From a virus: a stretch of 41,379 nt of DNA. Made by a program: the position numbers and the translations under genes. The notes under the pieces were generated by a model, which was given only the letters and a program-made list of their open reading frames with translations, was not told the DNA's origin and ran no database searches. Shown here one piece after another: positions 1 to 41,379 of this stretch. The DNA lies in IMG/VR virus record IMGVR_UViG_3300046506_000212, positions 1-41,379 of that record; one strand, 5' to 3'. The stretch's first letter is position 1, and each line of letters opens with the position of its first letter.

Positions 1-24
1 GCCCCGCCCAGTGCGGGGCTTTTT
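1..24 (+). terminator. Rho-independent terminator between gpX and gpD
   Basis: Stem GCCCCGC (1-7), loop CCAGT, stem GCGGGGC (13-19), then TTTTT (20-24). On the circle it lies 35 bp after the gpX stop and 19 bp before the gpD start, so it probably lowers gpD expression relative to the other tail genes. gpD itself has no clear Shine-Dalgarno sequence. Confidence 0.75.
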
Positions 25-127
25 CATTTCTGAGAATCCCCCATGAAGCCAGTCCATAAGATCGTGGCCAATGGCCTCGACATTTCCGACGCCATCAACG
101 ACCGGCTGTTGAGTGCCCGCACCGTCG
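1..127. repeat. Terminal overlap, first copy (circular molecule)
   Basis: Bases 1-127 are identical to 41253-41379. The repeat begins in a terminator hairpin and ends inside the gpD coding sequence at an arbitrary codon, so it has no biological boundary. An exact 127-bp overlap is what a de Bruijn assembler with k=127 leaves on a circular contig. The true replicon is therefore inferred to be a 41,252-bp circle. Confidence 0.95.
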
Positions 128-1590: not shown

Positions 1591-1597
1591 AATGGCG

Positions 1598-2602
1598 ATG
1601 GTCGAGGTATCCGCGAGCGCGGACCTTTCCCCCATGATGTGGGGAAAAAGCGCTTACTCGTATCCGGGTAAGTTTTTAGGCTCTGGCAATCGGTGCGGGC
1701 ATGATCCTGCGCGATTCTCGGCTGAGCGTCTGGCGCTGCCTGAAACAAAGAGCGGGCATCGCCTCTCTATCCTCCAAAAGCTCATTGACAGGGTGCAGGG
1801 CTACTTTCTGGACCCTGCAAGTATCCCCTTGCTCGCATACCGCGAAGACAAAAAAAAGCACGACGGTTCCTACCGGCAGAACCGTAGTGAAGCCCGCGAG
1901 GCCCACGGCCTTGTGGCCAGCACGATCATTGCCGATCTGGATCTTAAATCTCTGCGTGTGGGCAACTATGCCCCGAACGGCGAGTTTCGTTGCACGTCGT
2001 TCGACGAGTTGGCGCGGCGTTGCGGGCTGACCAAGCCTGCGGCGATCGCAACTGATAAGCCGGTGGCGAATAGCCGATTCTGGCGATGTGTCGCGCAGCT
2101 AAAGCGTGCGGGCATGTTCGAGGTATTCGAGCAGTACGAAGAAACCCCCGATGGCAAGCGGGGTCGCCCGGCTATCAAGGTCGTTAGCGAAAAATTCCTG
2201 CGCGTGCTGGGCGGGATTACCAAGGACGCCATGGGGGCCGCCCGGAAGAAGGCCACAAAAGCAGTGGCCAAGTTCATCGCGGGCGCCGTCGTCGGGGGCA
2301 TCCAGTCCAAGGATGAGCAAGACGAGCTAAGCGCCCAGGTGCGCAGTCAGCGCACGCGCAAAACGCTGTTCCCGAAGCCGGTTATCAAGAACCTGTCCCC
2401 TGGCGTGAGCAGCCCGGTCGGTGTGCTGGAGCCAGATAACAGCCTGCTGTTAGAAAGCTGGAAGGCGCACAGTGAACAGGTATACGCCGCCATGGCGGAA
2501 GCCCTCGGCCGTCGCCCGACGCTGGCCGAATCCCGAACGCGCTACGCCGAGTTCGGCGGCCTGACAACCGAAGAGTGGTCGGCGCGCCGCCGACGACTTT
2601 AG
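1598..2602 (+). CDS. repA: Plasmid replication initiator, RepA-like
   Basis: A 334-residue protein resembling plasmid RepA initiators of the winged-helix type. The central region, from RLSILQKLIDRVQGYFLDPA through ADLDLKSLRVGNYAPNGEF to a helix-turn-helix (TSFDELARRCGLTKPAA) and SRFWRCVAQLKRAGMFEVFE, has the arrangement seen in IncFII-like RepA proteins. It is followed by KVVSEKFLRVLGGI and a basic Lys/Ala-rich segment. The C-terminal 60 residues are Arg-rich and likely bind DNA. I prefer the ATG at 1598 because AGGG then sits 7 nt upstream; an ATG at 1592 leaves only 1 nt. The structured leader upstream and the 660-bp non-coding region downstream fit a replicon. The exact Rep family is not certain. 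Confidence 0.72.
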   Translation: MVEVSASADLSPMMWGKSAYSYPGKFLGSGNRCGHDPARFSAERLALPETKSGHRLSILQKLIDRVQGYFLDPASIPLLAYREDKKKHDGSYRQNRSEAREAHGLVASTIIADLDLKSLRVGNYAPNGEFRCTSFDELARRCGLTKPAAIATDKPVANSRFWRCVAQLKRAGMFEVFEQYEETPDGKRGRPAIKVVSEKFLRVLGGITKDAMGAARKKATKAVAKFIAGAVVGGIQSKDEQDELSAQVRSQRTRKTLFPKPVIKNLSPGVSSPVGVLEPDNSLLLESWKAHSEQVYAAMAEALGRRPTLAESRTRYAEFGGLTTEEWSARRRRL

Positions 2603-3623: not shown

Positions 3624-4034
3624 ATGTTCTGGCTGGTTGCGAGGGATGGTGTACGGACCTCGATTAACGCCGTGGATATGTGGGAGGCGATGCGGGATGC
3701 GTTGCGCTCCGATTGTGATTTGCTTGTCGCGGCTAGGCCTGGTCGCGTGCTGGGCCGGTCCGAATTGCTGGCCGCGCTCAAGTTGGGCCGCCCTGGCCTG
3801 TTTGATGACTACTTGCCCGGCTGGGAACCGCCTACCTTCGAAGAATTCCGCGAGCTGCTGCGTATTGCCCGGTTGACCGGCAGCATGGCTGCCGCCGTCG
3901 TCGGCGTGACGCCGGTCAAGATTCGCAAATGGGCGGGCGGCGATGGCAGCCCGCCGTATGCGGTCTGGCGTCTGCTGGCCATTTATGCCCGGCTCGCCGA
4001 GCCGTCGAGGGTGGAGCTGTCAGCGGCCGAATAA
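3624..4034 (+). CDS. Putative helix-turn-helix regulator (136 aa)
   Basis: The C-terminal half contains a helix-turn-helix-like segment (LTGSMAAAVVGVTPVKIRKW, followed by an aromatic helix ending LLAIYARL), similar in form to small phage/plasmid repressors. The N-terminal half (NAVDMWEAMRDALRSDCDLL) is helical and unrecognised. I chose ATG 3624 because GGAG sits 6-7 nt upstream and the longer start at 3516 would overlap the preceding gene and run through two hairpins. It lies just upstream of the partition cassette and may regulate replication or partition; that is inference. Confidence 0.6.
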   Translation: MFWLVARDGVRTSINAVDMWEAMRDALRSDCDLLVAARPGRVLGRSELLAALKLGRPGLFDDYLPGWEPPTFEEFRELLRIARLTGSMAAAVVGVTPVKIRKWAGGDGSPPYAVWRLLAIYARLAEPSRVELSAAE

Positions 4035-4040
4035 AATAAA

Positions 4041-4103
4041 GGATACCTATAGGATTGACATAGGATACTAAAGGGATATCCTTTGGGTATCTGTTCGGTA
4101 TCC
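4041..4103. repeat. parS: Partition iteron array 1 (six 11-bp repeats)
   Basis: Repeats with consensus GGATATCC start at 4041, 4052, 4063, 4074, 4085 and 4096, exactly 11 bp apart: GGATACCT, GGATTGAC, GGATACTA, GGATATCC, GGGTATCT, CGGTATCC. One repeat per helical turn directly upstream of parA is the pattern of a centromere/operator for a ribbon-helix-helix partition protein. Confidence 0.85.
4055..4082 (+). promoter_or_regulatory. parA promoter embedded in iterons
   Basis: TTGACA (4055-4060), 16-bp spacer, TATCCT (4077-4082). Both hexamers lie inside the iteron array, so binding of the partition protein should repress its own operon. Confidence 0.65.
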
Positions 4104-4118
4104 TTTGAGGGTTTAGGC

Positions 4119-4775
4119 ATGTCCATAATTTTGTTCGGCAATACCAAGGGCGGGATCGGCAAGTCGACGAGTTCGGTGCAAGTGGCCGTAGGCCGAGCGC
4201 TTCAGGGTAAAGACGTGCTGCTGGTCAATGGCGACCGGCAGTCATCGTCGGCAAAGGCCATCGGCCGTCGTGATGAGGCCGCCATTACCCCGAGCGTGAC
4301 GCTTGTGTCTTACCCTGAAGGCGACCAGTTGCGTACTCAGGTACTGCGGCTGGCCAGCAAGTACGATGACGTCATCATCGACGCGGGCGGGCGTGACAGT
4401 TCAGCACTGCGGCACGCGATGATGATTGCGGACGTCATGCTGGTGCCCATCGCCCCCGGCAACTTCGAGTTGGATGCCCTAGAGGATGAGTTAATACCGC
4501 TGATCCAAGAGATTCAGACCCTGCGCGGCGATAACCCGCTGCCGATCTACGCCTTTCTTAACAAGGCCGAGCCTAACAAGTTCTCAAGCGACAACATCGC
4601 AACGCGCAAATCCATAGAAAGCTTCCCTGAGTTGCAATTGCTGGATATCAACGTGGTGGATCGTAAGGCGATTGCTTCTGCCTCTACGACTGGTATCAGC
4701 GTTCGCGAAGCCAAAGTGAAGGACCCTAAAGCGGTCAGGGAAATTGACGCGCTCATGTCTGCGCTGTTTAATTAG
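4119..4775 (+). CDS. parA: ParA-family partition ATPase
   Basis: A 218-residue ParA/MinD-type ATPase. It has a deviant Walker A box KGGIGKST (residues 10-17, with the signature lysine at 10 and K15), a Walker A' region near LVNGD (about 32-36) and a Walker B-like strand DDVIIDAGG (about 88-96). It is short and lacks an N-terminal helix-turn-helix, as in type Ib systems that use a small ribbon-helix-helix partner, which is exactly what follows. The start is ATG 4119 with GAGGG 8 nt upstream; an earlier start at 4083 would fall inside the iteron array. It should segregate the plasmid prophage by moving on nucleoid DNA. Confidence 0.92.
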   Translation: MSIILFGNTKGGIGKSTSSVQVAVGRALQGKDVLLVNGDRQSSSAKAIGRRDEAAITPSVTLVSYPEGDQLRTQVLRLASKYDDVIIDAGGRDSSALRHAMMIADVMLVPIAPGNFELDALEDELIPLIQEIQTLRGDNPLPIYAFLNKAEPNKFSSDNIATRKSIESFPELQLLDINVVDRKAIASASTTGISVREAKVKDPKAVREIDALMSALFN

Positions 4776-4848
4776 GATATCGTTTAAATATCTAATGGGT
4801 ATCCCTTGGATATCTAAAAGACACTCTTTGAATATCTGGAAGGTATCT
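4775..4848. repeat. parS: Partition iteron array 2 (seven 11-bp repeats)
   Basis: Copies start at 4775, 4786, 4797, 4808, 4819, 4830 and 4841, again exactly 11 bp apart. The array begins on the last base of the parA stop codon and ends 1 bp before the ATG of the ribbon-helix-helix gene. 4819 is the weakest copy (AGACACT). The ribosome binding site GGAAGG (4838-4843) lies within the array. Confidence 0.85.
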
Positions 4849-4849
4849 T

Positions 4850-5104
4850 ATGGCATCAGTTATCAAGCGCGCCCCTAAGCCAGCGACAGCCGACCCGGCG
4901 TCGGATCAGGTAGCAACCAAGGCCGCCGCGACGGCGCCCGACAGCAAGGGGAAAAAGAACATGCGCGGAAAGCGCGAGATGTTCGCGGTGGGCTTTGAGC
5001 CGGAGCTTATGGCAGAGCTGGACGCCGCCCGTGCGCGGGTAGGTCTTTCGCGTCCGGCGCTGCTCAAGCTGGCCTTGCGGCGCCTGCTGGATTCCGGCGT
5101 TTAA
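4850..5104 (+). CDS. Ribbon-helix-helix centromere-binding protein (ParB/ParG-like)
   Basis: An 84-residue protein with an Ala/Lys-rich flexible N-terminus (residues 1-40) and a C-terminal ribbon-helix-helix fold: strand REMFAVGF (about 42-49), helix ELMAELDAARARVG, then the loop and helix LSRPALLKLALRRLLDSG. This is the architecture of ParG-type partners, in which the mobile N-tail stimulates the ParA ATPase, often through an arginine finger. It follows parA and is flanked on both sides by 11-bp iterons, its presumed binding sites. The gene and its role are well supported by context; the family name ParG versus CopG-like is not decided. Confidence 0.85.
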   Translation: MASVIKRAPKPATADPASDQVATKAAATAPDSKGKKNMRGKREMFAVGFEPELMAELDAARARVGLSRPALLKLALRRLLDSGV

Positions 5105-5114
5105 GGTGGCGTAA

Positions 5115-5166
5115 GGATCTATAAAAGATATTAAAAGGATATCCCTAGGATATTGTAAAGGTATCC
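5115..5166. repeat. parS: Partition iteron array 3 (five 11-bp repeats)
   Basis: Copies at 5115, 5126, 5137, 5148 and 5159 (GGATCTAT, AGATATTA, GGATATCC, GGATATTG, AGGTATCC), period 11 bp, between the ribbon-helix-helix gene and the next gene. Being downstream of the cassette, this array may be the segregation centromere proper, or may put the next gene under partition-protein control. Confidence 0.8.
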
Positions 5167-5214
5167 TTTAGGTTGTATAGTTCGTTCATCCAGTCAAACC
5201 AGGGATGTACGAAA

Positions 5215-5541
5215 ATGACGCAGTTCAAGCCGCAAACGGAAGCGCAGCAAATCGCCGGGGCCATCCTCGATCAGTTCGGCGCCCGTCGCTTCATGGTGAT
5301 GACCGGCGCTAGGGGCGTCGTTGCTCTGCCCCAAGGGCTGCAATTCCAGTTGCCTGCCAAGGCGGCGCGGGACGGGATCAACATGGTTCGCGTCGAGCTG
5401 GACGAGTTCGACTTGTACCGGGTCGTGGTGGGCCGCTGGCAGCGTCTGGACTTCACGGAAAAGGCCCGCGAGCAGGGCTTGCTGTGCGCGGATCTGCACG
5501 CCGCTTTCACCCGCCTGACCGGCCTCGAAACCCATCTATAA
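5215..5541 (+). CDS. Hypothetical protein (108 aa) next to the partition locus
   Basis: Unrecognised protein with a mixed alpha/beta look: helix QQIAGAILDQFGARRF, strands FMVMTGARGVVAL and QLPAKAARDGINMVRVELDEFDLYRVVVGRW, then a C-terminal helix. The start is ATG 5215 with AGGGA about 10 nt upstream. An earlier in-frame start at 5173 would fall just after iteron array 3. The location suggests a plasmid-maintenance role under partition-protein control, but this is only inference. Confidence 0.6.
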   Translation: MTQFKPQTEAQQIAGAILDQFGARRFMVMTGARGVVALPQGLQFQLPAKAARDGINMVRVELDEFDLYRVVVGRWQRLDFTEKAREQGLLCADLHAAFTRLTGLETHL

Positions 5542-5584: not shown

Positions 5585-6730
5585 ATGGCCCGTAAGCCCG
5601 TTCCCAAATACGTCCCCCTTGAACAGCGCCCGGCGTTCCTCGCGTCCGTCGAGGCGCTGCCCGTTGACCCGGCCGAACTGGAAGCGCTGGCCCGGCAAGC
5701 GCAGCAGCTCTATAACGATGCGGTCGTGGCCGGAGACGTTGAGCGGCTGGACGCGGCGCATGATGCTTATATGGCGGTGGTGGTGCGCCTCAATGGCAGC
5801 AATCCGGCCGGTTGCGGGCCGATCATCGGCGCGCTGGACAAGGCGCTGGCCGCTGCGCCGGGCCATGTGCCGGGCTGGGGGCAGGCCGGGCATTTCTTGC
5901 TTGAGGTGGACGGCCTGCGGGTGCAGGTGGTGGCCCGCTCCGGCACGCTGGAGAACCATTGCATTCATGATCTGATTGCGGTCGATCTGGACAAGCCATT
6001 TCCCAATGAGTCCGGCCGCAAGAGCCTGTACATGACCGTTACGCATCACCTGGGTGAAACGTTCGATCAGGCGGTGCGCCGGGCGGTGCGTGAGCTGCTG
6101 GTGATGGACGGCCAGATGGTCAGCATTGGCGCGGACGCCAAGCTGTTGCCGTCGCTGGCCAAGCGGCCGGGCTGGCTGGTCGATGCGCTGGCCGGGGTCA
6201 AGCCGGACGGTCAACTGGCGATGTTCGGCGATGCGCCGCCCGCCAAAGTCCCCTTGACCAACGCCCAGCGTCAGAAGGCATTGCGCGAGCGGCGCAAGCA
6301 GCAGCAATTGAAGCCGGTGATGCTGAACGAGCTGGACCGTAACGTGCTGCGCATGGCGTTGGACGCTTACGACTCGTTCGATGGCTGTTCGTCGACACCC
6401 GAGTACCGGTTGGGGTTGTTGCGGCGTCTGGTGCCGGGGGCCGATTGGTTCCCCGCCGAGCATCGCCAGTGCCAGCAACTGAAGCGCTTGCATGAGGCCG
6501 AGGTCGGCCGCTGGGTGCGCAAGAGCCAGGAGGGCAGCCAGGAGTCCAGCCGCTGGGCCGCCAAGGCGCGGGAATGGGAAGCTCAAGCCAAGGCCGCGCA
6601 GGCCTTGGAGAAAGAAAACGCCTTGCTGGAGAACGAGCGCAACGGCTCATTGGCGGCCGTCCAGACCTTGACCGAGCGCTTGCGCCGTGCGGGGTTGTGC
6701 ACTGACTACCGCAAGCAGCCGGGCGAATAG
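5585..6730 (+). CDS. Large hypothetical protein with C-terminal coiled coil (381 aa)
   Basis: Not recognised. The N-terminal third is helical. The middle contains a compact alpha/beta region (LLEVDGLRVQVVARSGTLEN, then DLIAVDLDKPFPNESGRKSL) and a run around FDQAVRRAVRELLVMDGQMVS. There is a basic linker (RQKALRERRKQQQLKP), and residues about 295-360 are rich in Glu, Ala, Gln and Lys and predicted coiled coil. Large coiled-coil proteins beside partition genes can be KfrA-like auxiliary segregation factors, but the N-terminal DNA-binding domain of KfrA is not evident. ATG 5585 lies 8 nt after a TTGGAG ribosome binding site. Confidence 0.65.
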   Translation: MARKPVPKYVPLEQRPAFLASVEALPVDPAELEALARQAQQLYNDAVVAGDVERLDAAHDAYMAVVVRLNGSNPAGCGPIIGALDKALAAAPGHVPGWGQAGHFLLEVDGLRVQVVARSGTLENHCIHDLIAVDLDKPFPNESGRKSLYMTVTHHLGETFDQAVRRAVRELLVMDGQMVSIGADAKLLPSLAKRPGWLVDALAGVKPDGQLAMFGDAPPAKVPLTNAQRQKALRERRKQQQLKPVMLNELDRNVLRMALDAYDSFDGCSSTPEYRLGLLRRLVPGADWFPAEHRQCQQLKRLHEAEVGRWVRKSQEGSQESSRWAAKAREWEAQAKAAQALEKENALLENERNGSLAAVQTLTERLRRAGLCTDYRKQPGE

Positions 6731-6755: not shown

Positions 6756-6796
6756 GCATCACAAGTGTTGCCATGGCATCACAAGTGATGCATAAT
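6756..6796 (+). promoter_or_regulatory. hicAB promoter with two HicB-type operators
   Basis: Two imperfectly identical palindromes 20 bp apart, GCATCAC-AA-GTGTTGC (6756-6771) and GCATCAC-AA-GTGATGC (6776-6791), overlie a promoter TTGCCA (6768-6773), 17 bp, CATAAT (6791-6796). The operators cover both promoter elements, the classic autorepression layout for an antitoxin with a DNA-binding domain. Confidence 0.85.
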
Positions 6797-6826
6797 GGCT
6801 CTACCGAAACAGCAAGGACGGAAGCA

Positions 6827-7009
6827 ATGAAGTGCAGCGAGTTTCGGCGGTGGTTAACGGCTCAAGGCGCAACGTTTAAACATGCCAAGGGCAGTCATTG
6901 GAAGGTGTACGTCAATGACAAAATGACCATCTTTGCGGACCACGGGGCGAAGGAAATGCACGAAGGGCTCCGCAAATCGACCATCAAACAACTGGGCCTC
7001 AAGGACTGA
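6827..7009 (+). CDS. hicA: HicA-type mRNA interferase toxin
   Basis: A 60-residue HicA protein with the double-stranded-RNA-binding-like fold: KCSEFRRWLTAQGATF, then the G-S-H catalytic motif with His24 (KGSHWKVYVND), and a C-terminal GLRKSTIKQLGL helix, all family hallmarks. It blocks translation by cleaving mRNA unless bound by HicB. Start ATG 6827 fits the family N-terminus (MKCSEF) with AAGGA upstream. The gene precedes the antitoxin, the usual hic order. Confidence 0.93.
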   Translation: MKCSEFRRWLTAQGATFKHAKGSHWKVYVNDKMTIFADHGAKEMHEGLRKSTIKQLGLKD

Positions 7010-7042
7010 GGCCCGGTTGTACCCCTGACCGGTGAGGCCTTT

Positions 7043-7468
7043 ATGTATCAGTACCCGTTGGAGCTGCACCACGAAGCCACTGGCGTGTGGCTGTCGTGCC
7101 CGGACGTGCCGGAGTTCAACGCCTCCGGCGACACCCTGGACGAGGCCCTGGACGAAGTGAGCAACGGCATGGAGGCGGCGCTGTCGCTGTACGTCGACCA
7201 GCGCCGCAAGATCCCGGCCGCCTCGGTCGAGGCCAGCGGTCAAGCGCTGGTCGTGCGTCTGCCCGCGTTGACCGTGGCCAAGGTCATGCTCTGGAATACC
7301 CTCTGCGACGAGGGCGTCAGTCGTGCCGAGCTGGCCCGGCGCATGGGCTGCACGCGGCAGATGGTCGACCGCCTTGTCGACTTCCTGCATACCTCGAAAA
7401 TCGAGCAGGTGGAGCGCGCCCTGGGCCACTTGGGGCGGCGGCTGTCGATCAGTGTCGAGGCGGCGTAG
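7043..7468 (+). CDS. hicB: HicB-type antitoxin with C-terminal helix-turn-helix
   Basis: A 141-residue HicB antitoxin. The N-terminal partial RNase-H-like fold (YPLELHHEATGVWLSCPDVPEFNAS, then GDTLDEALDEVSNGMEAAL) binds HicA. The C-terminal helix-turn-helix (VSRAELARRMGCTRQMVDRLVDF) should bind the two operators upstream of hicA. It starts 33 bp after hicA. The pair would act as an addiction module that stabilises the plasmid prophage, and HicAB pairs can also limit superinfecting phages. The assignment is firm. Confidence 0.93.
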   Translation: MYQYPLELHHEATGVWLSCPDVPEFNASGDTLDEALDEVSNGMEAALSLYVDQRRKIPAASVEASGQALVVRLPALTVAKVMLWNTLCDEGVSRAELARRMGCTRQMVDRLVDFLHTSKIEQVERALGHLGRRLSISVEAA

Positions 7469-8950: not shown

Positions 8951-8964
8951 GTCGTCTGCTGTTT

Positions 8965-9008
8965 ATCACTTTGCCGTAAAGTGATGTATCATTTTGCCAT
9001 AAAGTGAT
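8965..9008. promoter_or_regulatory. Twin 21-bp operator-like palindromes
   Basis: 8965-8985 has arms ATCACTTT and AAAGTGAT around GCCGT; 8988-9008 has ATCATTTT and AAAGTGAT around GCCAT. The copies are 23 bp apart (about two helical turns), 35 bp before the ATG at 9044. The protein that binds them is not obvious; no neighbouring gene is a clear repressor. Confidence 0.75.
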
Positions 9009-16038: not shown

Positions 16039-17310
16039 ATGTCAACAATTCTTCAAGTCGCGGTCTCTGATGCCTCTATAAAGAAGCATGCGGCCGACCT
16101 GGGCGTCATCGAGCTGAAAGACCCGCGTTACCCGTTACGCTTCCGCTACCGCAAAGACCGCACCCGAGGCAGTTGGCATGTGGTCCGCTACGAAGGTCGG
16201 GCGGTCTGGCGCAAGGCGGGTAACTGGCCGGACGTGTCGGCCCGCTCGATGCTCGACAGCCTGCCCGATGTACTTAAGCGCCTTATGGTTGACCCGTCCT
16301 GCACGGCAACCGTGGACGGCTGGGAAACCGTGGGCGAGCTGCTGGACTGGTTTTCGTCTCGCGTTGAGGCCGACCGGGGGCTAACCGAGGGGCGCCGGTC
16401 AACCGTTCTATCTGCTATCCGCTGCCATTTGAAACCCTGCCTCGGTGTGCTGCGGCTCGATGCCCTGAATAAGGCCAGGATCGACGACCGGTTGATTCAG
16501 CCGATGCGGGCAGAGTCCAGCTTGTCACACGTCAAATCGGTTTTCGGCGTCCTGCAGAACGCTTTCCGTCGTGCGCTGAGTCTGGCCAAGCTGTCGTCAA
16601 ACCCCATCGACCGCGTGACATTCGGCAACTTCAGTAAAGAGAAGATCAAGCCCAAGGGGGCCAGTCTGCGCCATGTGCATGCCGTCGACCTGTTGGCCAG
16701 TTGGGCAGACCTGTACGAAGAAAAGCCGGTAGACGTGACGTTTGCCGCGCTGATGCTGACCCATGGGACGCGCATCACTGAAACCCGCCTGACCAAGTGG
16801 AAAGACCTTTCTCTTATAGAGGGAGGGGAGTGGTTCATACCGGCCACACATACCAAGTCACGCCGGGACCATCGCTTGCCGCTGACCGCCCAAGCCATCG
16901 CTCTCTTAATCCGTTACCGCGAATGGCAGCAGGCAAGGGGGTATGCCGGTGCCTACGTCTTCCCATCGACCAAGCGCCCAGGCAAGCCGGTGTCACGCGG
17001 GCAGTCTTTCGACATGTTCCAGTCCCTGGGCGCCAGTGAATGGACCAGTCACGACCTACGCAAGCTCGCCCGGACGACCTGGGGGGATTTGAACGTGGAT
17101 AGCCTTGTGGGCCGCCTGCTGTTGAACCACGCCCTAACCGATCTTGAGGCGACTTACTTCCAATCGACCGGCGAGGCCCTGAAGCGCGCCGCCCTGGAAA
17201 AGTGGCATGCATGGCTCGACGCCCAGGGCTTCGACGCACTCCACAGCAAGACAGGAGCAAGACGGACCGAACGACCCATATCGCTAGACCCCGCTGGCTG
17301 GCTGGTCTGA
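16039..17310 (+). CDS. int: Tyrosine recombinase (phage integrase)
   Basis: A 423-residue tyrosine recombinase. An arm-binding-type N-terminal region (FRYRKDRTRGSWHVVRYEGR) is followed by a core-binding SAM-like domain (about residues 95-185) and the catalytic domain with the full active set: Arg245 in TRITE, Lys273, His338 and Arg341 in HDLR, His364 in LNHAL and nucleophile Tyr373. It is rightward, in line with the early genes, with no attP-like repeats or tRNA fragment beside it. Because the element also has repA and par genes, it may act in integration, in dimer resolution of the plasmid, or be a relic of an integrative ancestor. Confidence 0.92.
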   Translation: MSTILQVAVSDASIKKHAADLGVIELKDPRYPLRFRYRKDRTRGSWHVVRYEGRAVWRKAGNWPDVSARSMLDSLPDVLKRLMVDPSCTATVDGWETVGELLDWFSSRVEADRGLTEGRRSTVLSAIRCHLKPCLGVLRLDALNKARIDDRLIQPMRAESSLSHVKSVFGVLQNAFRRALSLAKLSSNPIDRVTFGNFSKEKIKPKGASLRHVHAVDLLASWADLYEEKPVDVTFAALMLTHGTRITETRLTKWKDLSLIEGGEWFIPATHTKSRRDHRLPLTAQAIALLIRYREWQQARGYAGAYVFPSTKRPGKPVSRGQSFDMFQSLGASEWTSHDLRKLARTTWGDLNVDSLVGRLLLNHALTDLEATYFQSTGEALKRAALEKWHAWLDAQGFDALHSKTGARRTERPISLDPAGWLV

Positions 17311-41252: not shown

Positions 41253-41379
41253 GCCCCGCCCAGTGCGGGGCTTTTTCATTTCTGAGAATCCCCCATGAAG
41301 CCAGTCCATAAGATCGTGGCCAATGGCCTCGACATTTCCGACGCCATCAACGACCGGCTGTTGAGTGCCCGCACCGTCG
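41253..41379. repeat. Terminal overlap, second copy
   Basis: Second copy of bases 1-127. It contains the gpX-gpD terminator and the first 85 bases of gpD (41295-41379), which is not a second gene but the same gene met again on the circle. Confidence 0.95.

Follow-up and report, generated by a model that had tools for sequence, protein, structure and literature searches.

The locus described here raises the question of what a set of short, regularly spaced repeats does around a parA gene and the gene of its RHH partner, and whether such repeats combine two styles of plasmid partition when the motor beside them is a ParA ATPase, as had been proposed from the letters of the DNA alone. The window (the whole stretch of DNA analyzed, 41,379 nucleotides of the IMG/VR virus record IMGVR_UViG_3300046506_000212) was examined for repeats, genes and promoter-like sites, and its par genes were compared with those of plasmids, phages and other viral contigs.

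Three phased 11-bp arrays around parA

Eighteen consecutive 11-bp units (6 + 7 + 5), exactly in phase, make up three arrays (Table 1). The sequence-only reading had counted the same units and had their positions right, but its ranges (4041-4103, 4775-4848 and 5115-5166) end a few bases short of ours. As it also held, the arrays occupy all three gaps around parA and the RHH gene, one on either side of the pair and one between the two, with array 2 overlapping the last base of the parA stop codon and extending into the RHH start codon. Each array was scored by its self-match at a given lag against 1000 dinucleotide shuffles. At lag 11, array 1 matches itself at 38 of 66 positions (z 5.8) and at lag 22 it reaches z 5.3, while array 3 reaches z 4.6 and 4.3 at these two lags; none of the 1000 shuffles attained any of these values. 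The lag-11 signal of array 2 is weaker (z 2.5, reached by 13 of 1000 shuffles), and its signals at lags 22 and 33 stand at z 5.4 and 3.8 (0 of 1000 shuffles each). Considering that no shuffle matched the observed value at lag 22 in any array, or at lag 11 in arrays 1 and 3, chance is excluded as the source of the period. The highest lag-11 values for 70-bp windows in the whole 41 kb fall at 4031-4041 and 5096-5116.

Column counts over the 18 units give about RGRTATCYWWW, a near-palindrome on ATAT. With a matrix trained on these same units, each unit scores between 5.8 and 15.2 bits, and the weak ones are GGATTGACATA (4052, which contains the -35 box of a promoter-like site), GGATACTAAAG (4063), AGACACTCTTT (4819) and GAATATCTGGA (4830). 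For in-phase triplets, the maximum is 38.9, within the arrays, compared with at most 13.1 on the plus strand and 14.8 on the minus strand elsewhere in the window; in other words, the matrix scan of both strands found no comparable in-phase run of the array unit in the rest of the window. Tandem Repeats Finder recovered parts of arrays 1 and 3 (scores 41 and 37) but missed array 2, for which it is too strict because the copies are degenerate. The DNA helix makes one turn in about 10.5 bp. The spacing had been taken to imply a protein filament on one face of the DNA, and an ordered RHH coat with a dimer per turn is indeed plausible, but with 11 bp set against about 10.5 bp per turn such a coat would drift slowly round the helix.

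Table 1. Features of the par region and of the same replicon, in window positions
Feature	Position	Strand	Description
RepA-like initiator, same replicon	1592..2602	+	336 aa; tblastn; phrog_20951
Array 1, putative centromere and operator	4041..4106	.	six 11-bp units upstream of parA; contains the parA promoter-like site
parA promoter-like site	4055..4082	+	TTGACA - 16 bp - TATCCT, 10/12 consensus matches; -35 in unit 2, -10 in unit 4
parA	4119..4775	+	218 aa; small deviant-Walker ATPase without N-terminal DNA-binding domain
Array 2	4775..4851	.	seven 11-bp units in the parA-RHH gap
Putative RHH centromere-binding protein / repressor	4850..5104	+	84 aa; N-terminal tail, then C-terminal strand-helix-helix
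Array 3	5115..5169	.	five 11-bp units following the RHH gene; overlaps the promoter-like site of the next operon
Promoter-like site at array 3 end	5153..5181	+	TTGTAA - 17 bp - TATAGT, 9/12 matches; -35 in units 4-5, -10 just past the array
Gene after array 3	5215..5541	+	108 aa; phrog_9437 (5.9e-16), function unknown
Second gene after array 3	5585-6730		381 aa

The par proteins and their replicon

The parA product carries its KGGIGKS motif at the very N-terminus (from residue 10), matches PF13614 (1.7e-16) and the ParA-like partition proteins of phrog_164 (1.6e-36), and has ParF among its nearest solved relatives (E 1.5e-12, profile A2); against the NCBIfam model NF041546 (ParA family partition ATPase) it scores 113.6 bits, below the curated cut-off of 180. 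Its 84-aa partner scores 20.1 bits (E 6.2e-4) against PF01402, where the cut-off is 20.5, and 20.6 bits on the open frame; the Pfam RHH_1 cut-off is passed by four of the six RHH relatives tested. A profile (A3) of the RHH protein matches CopG (1.5e-4) and Rv0298 (3e-6), and residues 41-84 of its structural model overlay PutA, CopG and Arc with Z 6.5-6.9 and an rmsd of 1.4-1.8 over 43-44 aa, a Z of about 6.5 being common by that tool's own grading. Foldseek returned no match for the model below E 0.001, and the fold call therefore rests on the profile matches and the Z of about 6.5. TP228 ParG, omega and ParR were not among the fold-comparison matches listed, which excludes nothing. A single-sequence PDB search with the RHH protein gave mostly chance histone matches and was replaced by the profile search. 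Taken together, PF13614, phrog_164 and the RHH profile and fold matches bear out the earlier identification of a small ParA with an RHH partner as a par locus. The two genes also occur together: the 29 plasmid records with a ParA at least 60% identical to that of the window are the same 29 that have a window-type RHH gene.

The N-terminal half of the RHH protein is modelled at low confidence. In an alignment of 39 clade members (see below), three residues, A29, P30 and D31, reach 90% conservation or more; they lie in a motif I.KRP...APD(A/S), of which the window copy reads I.KRAP...APDS. Because the flexible N-terminal tail of the RHH ParB activates ParA in type Ib systems (PMC5016525), this motif is likely to be a ParA-activating tail. 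Public annotation shortens the RHH gene in two relatives: ORF3 of FLC5 is given only 93 bp (L016 1702-2007), and the gene of pPL-38ph (L006 2788-3036) is annotated from 2884. Likewise, the ParA of Pseudomonas phage PARCL1pr (L013 5397-6056) carries the annotation bchL (protochlorophyllide reductase subunit), likely in error.

The two ends of the record share an exact 127-bp direct repeat (window 1-127 and 41253-41379), and the window is therefore a complete circular genome of about 41.25 kb (41,252 bp without the repeat), written once around; its database entry carries no completeness value. Its gene order matches that of the circular Pseudomonas lundensis plasmid pPL-38ph: a RepA-like gene, parA, RHH, HicAB, repressor, integrase, terminase and virion genes. 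The RepA-like protein is 45% identical over 61% of the query, by tblastn, to a "plasmid replication protein repA" of an Aeromonas plasmid, and it gave no match in Pfam. On the strength of this initiator and of the pPL-38ph-like layout, the window most likely represents a phage-plasmid that, at a presumably low copy number, has to segregate its copies.

Several other features of the replicon deserve mention. A HicA toxin and HicB antitoxin pair (window 6773-7468) is common to pPL-38ph and other Pseudomonas plasmids. Besides its rep and par genes, the replicon encodes a tyrosine recombinase (window 16039-17310) that may act as an integrase or resolve multimers; the corresponding place in pPL-38ph is taken by a gene for a site-specific integrase. 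At window 8964-9008, a 23-bp unit, TATCACTTTGCCATAAAGTGATG, stands in two adjoining copies with an inverted repeat inside each, a possible operator pair. An Rfam scan of the window found no RNA family.

Probable assignment to type Ib and proposed mode of action

A small ParA, an RHH ParB and a repeat-array centromere characterize type Ib (PMC5016525, PMC3235114, PMC13245405), for which size ranges of 192-308 aa (ParA) and 46-131 aa (RHH ParB) are given (PMC3235114). With 218 and 84 aa, both window proteins fall within these ranges; the ParA has no N-terminal DNA-binding domain, the RHH gene lies just downstream of parA, and array 1 provides the short-repeat array upstream of the operon, over a promoter-like site. 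The ParB_N model (PF02195), used to look for ParBs of the HTH/CTPase kind, matched nothing in the window; its control matched in 11 of 14 genomes. We take the locus to be, very probably, a partition system of type Ib (type-I RHH-ParB) that serves a phage-plasmid, with the 84-aa protein as its predicted ParB and the coated arrays as putative operator and centromere at once. The idea of a hybrid, in which an RHH protein on iterons (type II style) is mixed with a ParA motor (type I style), was rejected, because the combination of RHH protein and ParA itself defines type Ib.

Array 1 had been said to contain the parA promoter, and by consensus match it does, with TTGACA at 4055. The promoter scan gave 3 sites in the region against 1.1 in shuffles, which is weak on its own, and found no promoter-like site in array 2. 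By eye, a TTGACA-like box lies at the same place in Pseudomonas relatives, and a TATA-type -10-like box lies just past array 3 in five relatives (L001, L004, L005, L006 and L013). With arrays 1 and 3 on promoter-like sites, with RHH relatives annotated as transcriptional repressors, and with the operator and centromere of TP228 described as separate stretches (PMC5016525), one may also think of the arrays as operators only, the RHH protein being an autorepressor that sets the levels of the Par proteins and of downstream products, and the centromere lying elsewhere or in just one array. We regard this as improbable. No other in-phase run of the unit is present in the window, and array 2 stands between genes, with no promoter-like site found there; moreover, each array holds 5-7 contiguous units where ParA activation in pSM19035 is reported to need a minimum of four contiguous heptads, and the arrays of that plasmid double as operator and centromere (PMC9499535).

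For the type Ib reading, the mechanism that we infer runs as follows. Each 11-bp unit would take up one RHH dimer on its palindromic GGATATCC-like core, and binding would be cooperative along each contiguous array, so that a coat forms. Coated arrays would repress the promoters embedded in them, that of parA-RHH in array 1 and that of the next operon in array 3, and Par levels would stay low. The same coated arrays would also act as the partition complex; its N-terminal tails (I.KRP...GAPDA/S), left free, would engage nucleoid-bound ParA-ATP and trigger ATP hydrolysis by ParA, upon which plasmid copies would move apart. The two genes that follow array 3 are candidates for its regulon; the 381-aa product of the second matched no Pfam family.

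An 11-bp period shared by a ParA clade

For each relative, we determined the best period between 7 and 16 by scoring the lags p, 2p and 3p together, as a comb, over upstream and intergenic DNA; the comb was adopted because single-lag z values on 150 bp of upstream DNA were noisy. This scored 108 of 178 records, leaving out the duplicates L001 and L101 and records with no usable ParA match, a ParA alignment below 190 columns or less than 100 bp upstream. A scan of genome contigs yielded mostly remote ParA proteins (at most 34% identity over long alignments), which were used as outgroup only. The best period was 11 in all 14 loci with at least 60% ParA identity, in both of those at 45-60% and in 25 of 25 at 38-45%, then in 7 of 16 at 33-38% and 4 of 51 below 33%. 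Thus, all 41 homologues with at least 38% identity scored best at 11 (33 with z of at least 3, 8 with z below 3), and the strong period signals among remote ParA loci were mostly 8 or 12.

A tree of 103 of the 108 ParA proteins (those of 170-260 aa with no internal stop), built with no array DNA, places the window in a clade of 49 rows with support 97, and IQ-TREE returned the same split with support 98. The best period is 11 in 48 of these 49 members, against 4 of the 54 rows outside, all four with z of at most 2.0. Since the clade contains near-copies, its 49 rows do not count as independent events, and at least six changes of period state are required on the tree. Upstream DNA alone gives 11 as best period in 44 of 49 members, and the parA-RHH gap alone in 32 of the 33 members in which it spans at least 36 bp; in one member, L127, no array was seen. 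Of the 42 members with enough sequence, 13 have a significant third array downstream: 11 of Pseudomonas type, the Yersinia plasmid pYR4 and one Dolichospermum phage.

The unit itself changes by subclade around a retained ATAT palindrome: GGATATCC in Pseudomonas, TTGATATCAA in KS14-like phages, the GC-richer TCGATATCGA in other viral contigs and TTAATATTAA in Yersinia. The unit models behind this comparison were seeded with an ATAT core, so that the core is biased by the start, a bias that does not extend to the flanks or to the preference for 11 among periods from 8 to 13; the RHH strings of L117 and L118, which are wrong-frame ORFs, were left out. In the per-group models of the three large groups, period 11 outscores every other period between 8 and 13 two- to threefold and lies above each of 12 shuffles, and in a free-register consensus the palindrome scores at or slightly above shuffled columns in most single loci. 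A binding protein that co-evolves with its sites would be expected to leave just this picture, constant spacing while the letters change. An 11-bp pitch combined with an ATAT-centered palindrome is a heritable trait of this ParA/RHH clade.

These data also bear on two other readings of the arrays. Helically phased, AT-rich DNA could be bent or bound by host proteins (IHF, H-NS, or in the manner of an UP element) with no dedicated binder, and the arrays do have a GC content of 0.32-0.39 in a genome of about 60% GC, with a period near one helical turn. On the other hand, a specific palindrome is kept while its flanks, including the GC-richer TCGATATCGA, vary by clade, host-factor sites would not follow the ParA/RHH clade, and ATAT alternation is not an A-tract; we give this reading next to no weight. 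Phased iterons are typical of theta origins. The replicon encodes a RepA-like protein, and the arrays might accordingly be replication iterons bound by that initiator, which we judge very improbable, if slightly less so: they lie 1.4-2.6 kb from rep, within and around the par operon; there is no repeat family of their kind around rep; and all 41 relatives with at least 38% ParA identity keep the period beside parA although their replicons differ. The arrays track the par genes rather than the replicon, standing beside different replicons in KS14, in pPT23A-type plasmids and in the window phage.

A partition role for the window locus is backed indirectly by two members of its ParA/RHH clade. 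Phage KS14 lysogenises as a plasmid, and the available passages of its description call the RHH gene "unknown" and, where they deal with repeats, concern insertion sequences (PMC3091744). In Pseudomonas savastanoi, SD1 of pPsv48A (ParA + RHH) is one of seven loci reported each to raise plasmid stability, in P. syringae B728a (PMC6354349). The SD1 ParA is only 38.5% identical to that of the window, yet it falls in the same clade (support 98), and the 130 bp upstream of it have 11 as best period (z 3.0).

What looks new in the locus is the 11-bp pitch. An 11-bp RHH-ParB class was not found in the open-access literature searched, and may stand in subscription papers, for example on pTAR, pRA2, pCXC100, pB171 or RedRock. 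It is conceivable, though we would not call it probable, that these loci form a distinct class of centromere, a clade spread over plasmids and phages of Pseudomonas, Burkholderia, Yersinia ruckeri and Dolichospermum. In such a class, one dimer would sit on each ATAT-centered palindrome once per turn in a nearly straight, single-start coat, unlike the 7-bp omega helix; specificity among co-resident plasmids would arise solely from swaps of the bases flanking ATAT (GG/CC, TTG/CAA, TCG/CGA, TTA/TAA) along with changes in the RHH strand; and in three-array members array 3 would tie the state of segregation to expression of the next operon. If this is right, a whole partition clade can be recognized from its repeat period, and centromeres and incompatibility groups would therefore be predictable from sequence for many phage-plasmids and for P. 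syringae plasmids of the pPT23A type. A fixed pitch with varying flanks would also offer natural variants for studying how RHH proteins read DNA, and the same variants bear on how coat pitch affects ParA activation, a question raised for the 7-bp pSM19035 system (PMC9499535).

Comparison with known partition systems

The nearest layout is that of delta-omega/parS of pSM19035 (type Ib, Firmicutes), which likewise has a small ParA, a small RHH ParB and three arrays of short repeats; each of its arrays lies on a promoter and acts as operator and centromere at once, a precedent for arrays 1 and 3 of the window (PMC5016525, PMC9499535). The likeness is one of layout, not of protein comparison, and the details differ: the pSM19035 unit is a non-palindromic 7-bp heptad in 7-10 copies per site, whereas the window has palindrome-centered 11-bp units in 5-7 copies per array, and delta and omega have separate promoters whereas parA and the RHH gene stand in tandem. 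The 7-bp heptads that mark the pSM19035 family are thus replaced here by a period of 11. In pSM19035, which serves as working model for the locus, the bound protein is described as not spreading past the array, and at least four contiguous units are needed there to fire the ParA ATPase (PMC9499535, PMC5016525), a minimum that every window array exceeds with at least five.

TP228 parFGH (type Ib) resembles the locus in its ParF-kind ParA, in an RHH protein with a flexible N-terminal tail and in a repeat-rich upstream operator; it differs in having direct and inverted repeats with AT-rich spacers, and the portion of the account available mentions no 11-bp comb (PMC5016525). The mycobacteriophages RedRock and Miko are extrachromosomal prophages in which parAB is flanked by parS arrays, with an additional parS beside repA in Miko; they differ from the window in their 8-bp units, eight copies per site in RedRock, and in their actinobacterial lineage (PMC7157519). 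The Burkholderia plasmid prophages KS14, FLC5 and FLC10 and SD1 of pPsv48A belong to the ParA/RHH clade of the window and have 11-bp arrays; KS14 differs by its core, TTGATATCAA, and by a third array that was not detected.

The parMRC system of R1 (type II) also has 11-bp repeats, which lie on both sides of its par promoter and to which an RHH protein binds (PMC9426499, PMC5016525). What R1 parC has in common with the window is unit length and this split, not the motor, which is the actin-like ParM in R1 and a ParA in the window operon, so that a similar period occurs with a different family. The ParM model PF06406 had no match in the window, in a search whose control was also silent, and it does match the ParM of pYR4. 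ParR combines an N-terminal RHH with a motor-binding C-terminal domain, whereas the RHH part of the window protein is C-terminal (residues 41-84) and follows the low-confidence tail. In Yersinia ruckeri pYR4 (L012 1317-2694 and 2998-3966), parM and a plasmid-stability gene stand head-to-head with a parA/RHH module of the clade. Because pYR4 has a true ParM system beside a clade member, two partition types can adjoin without being mixed.
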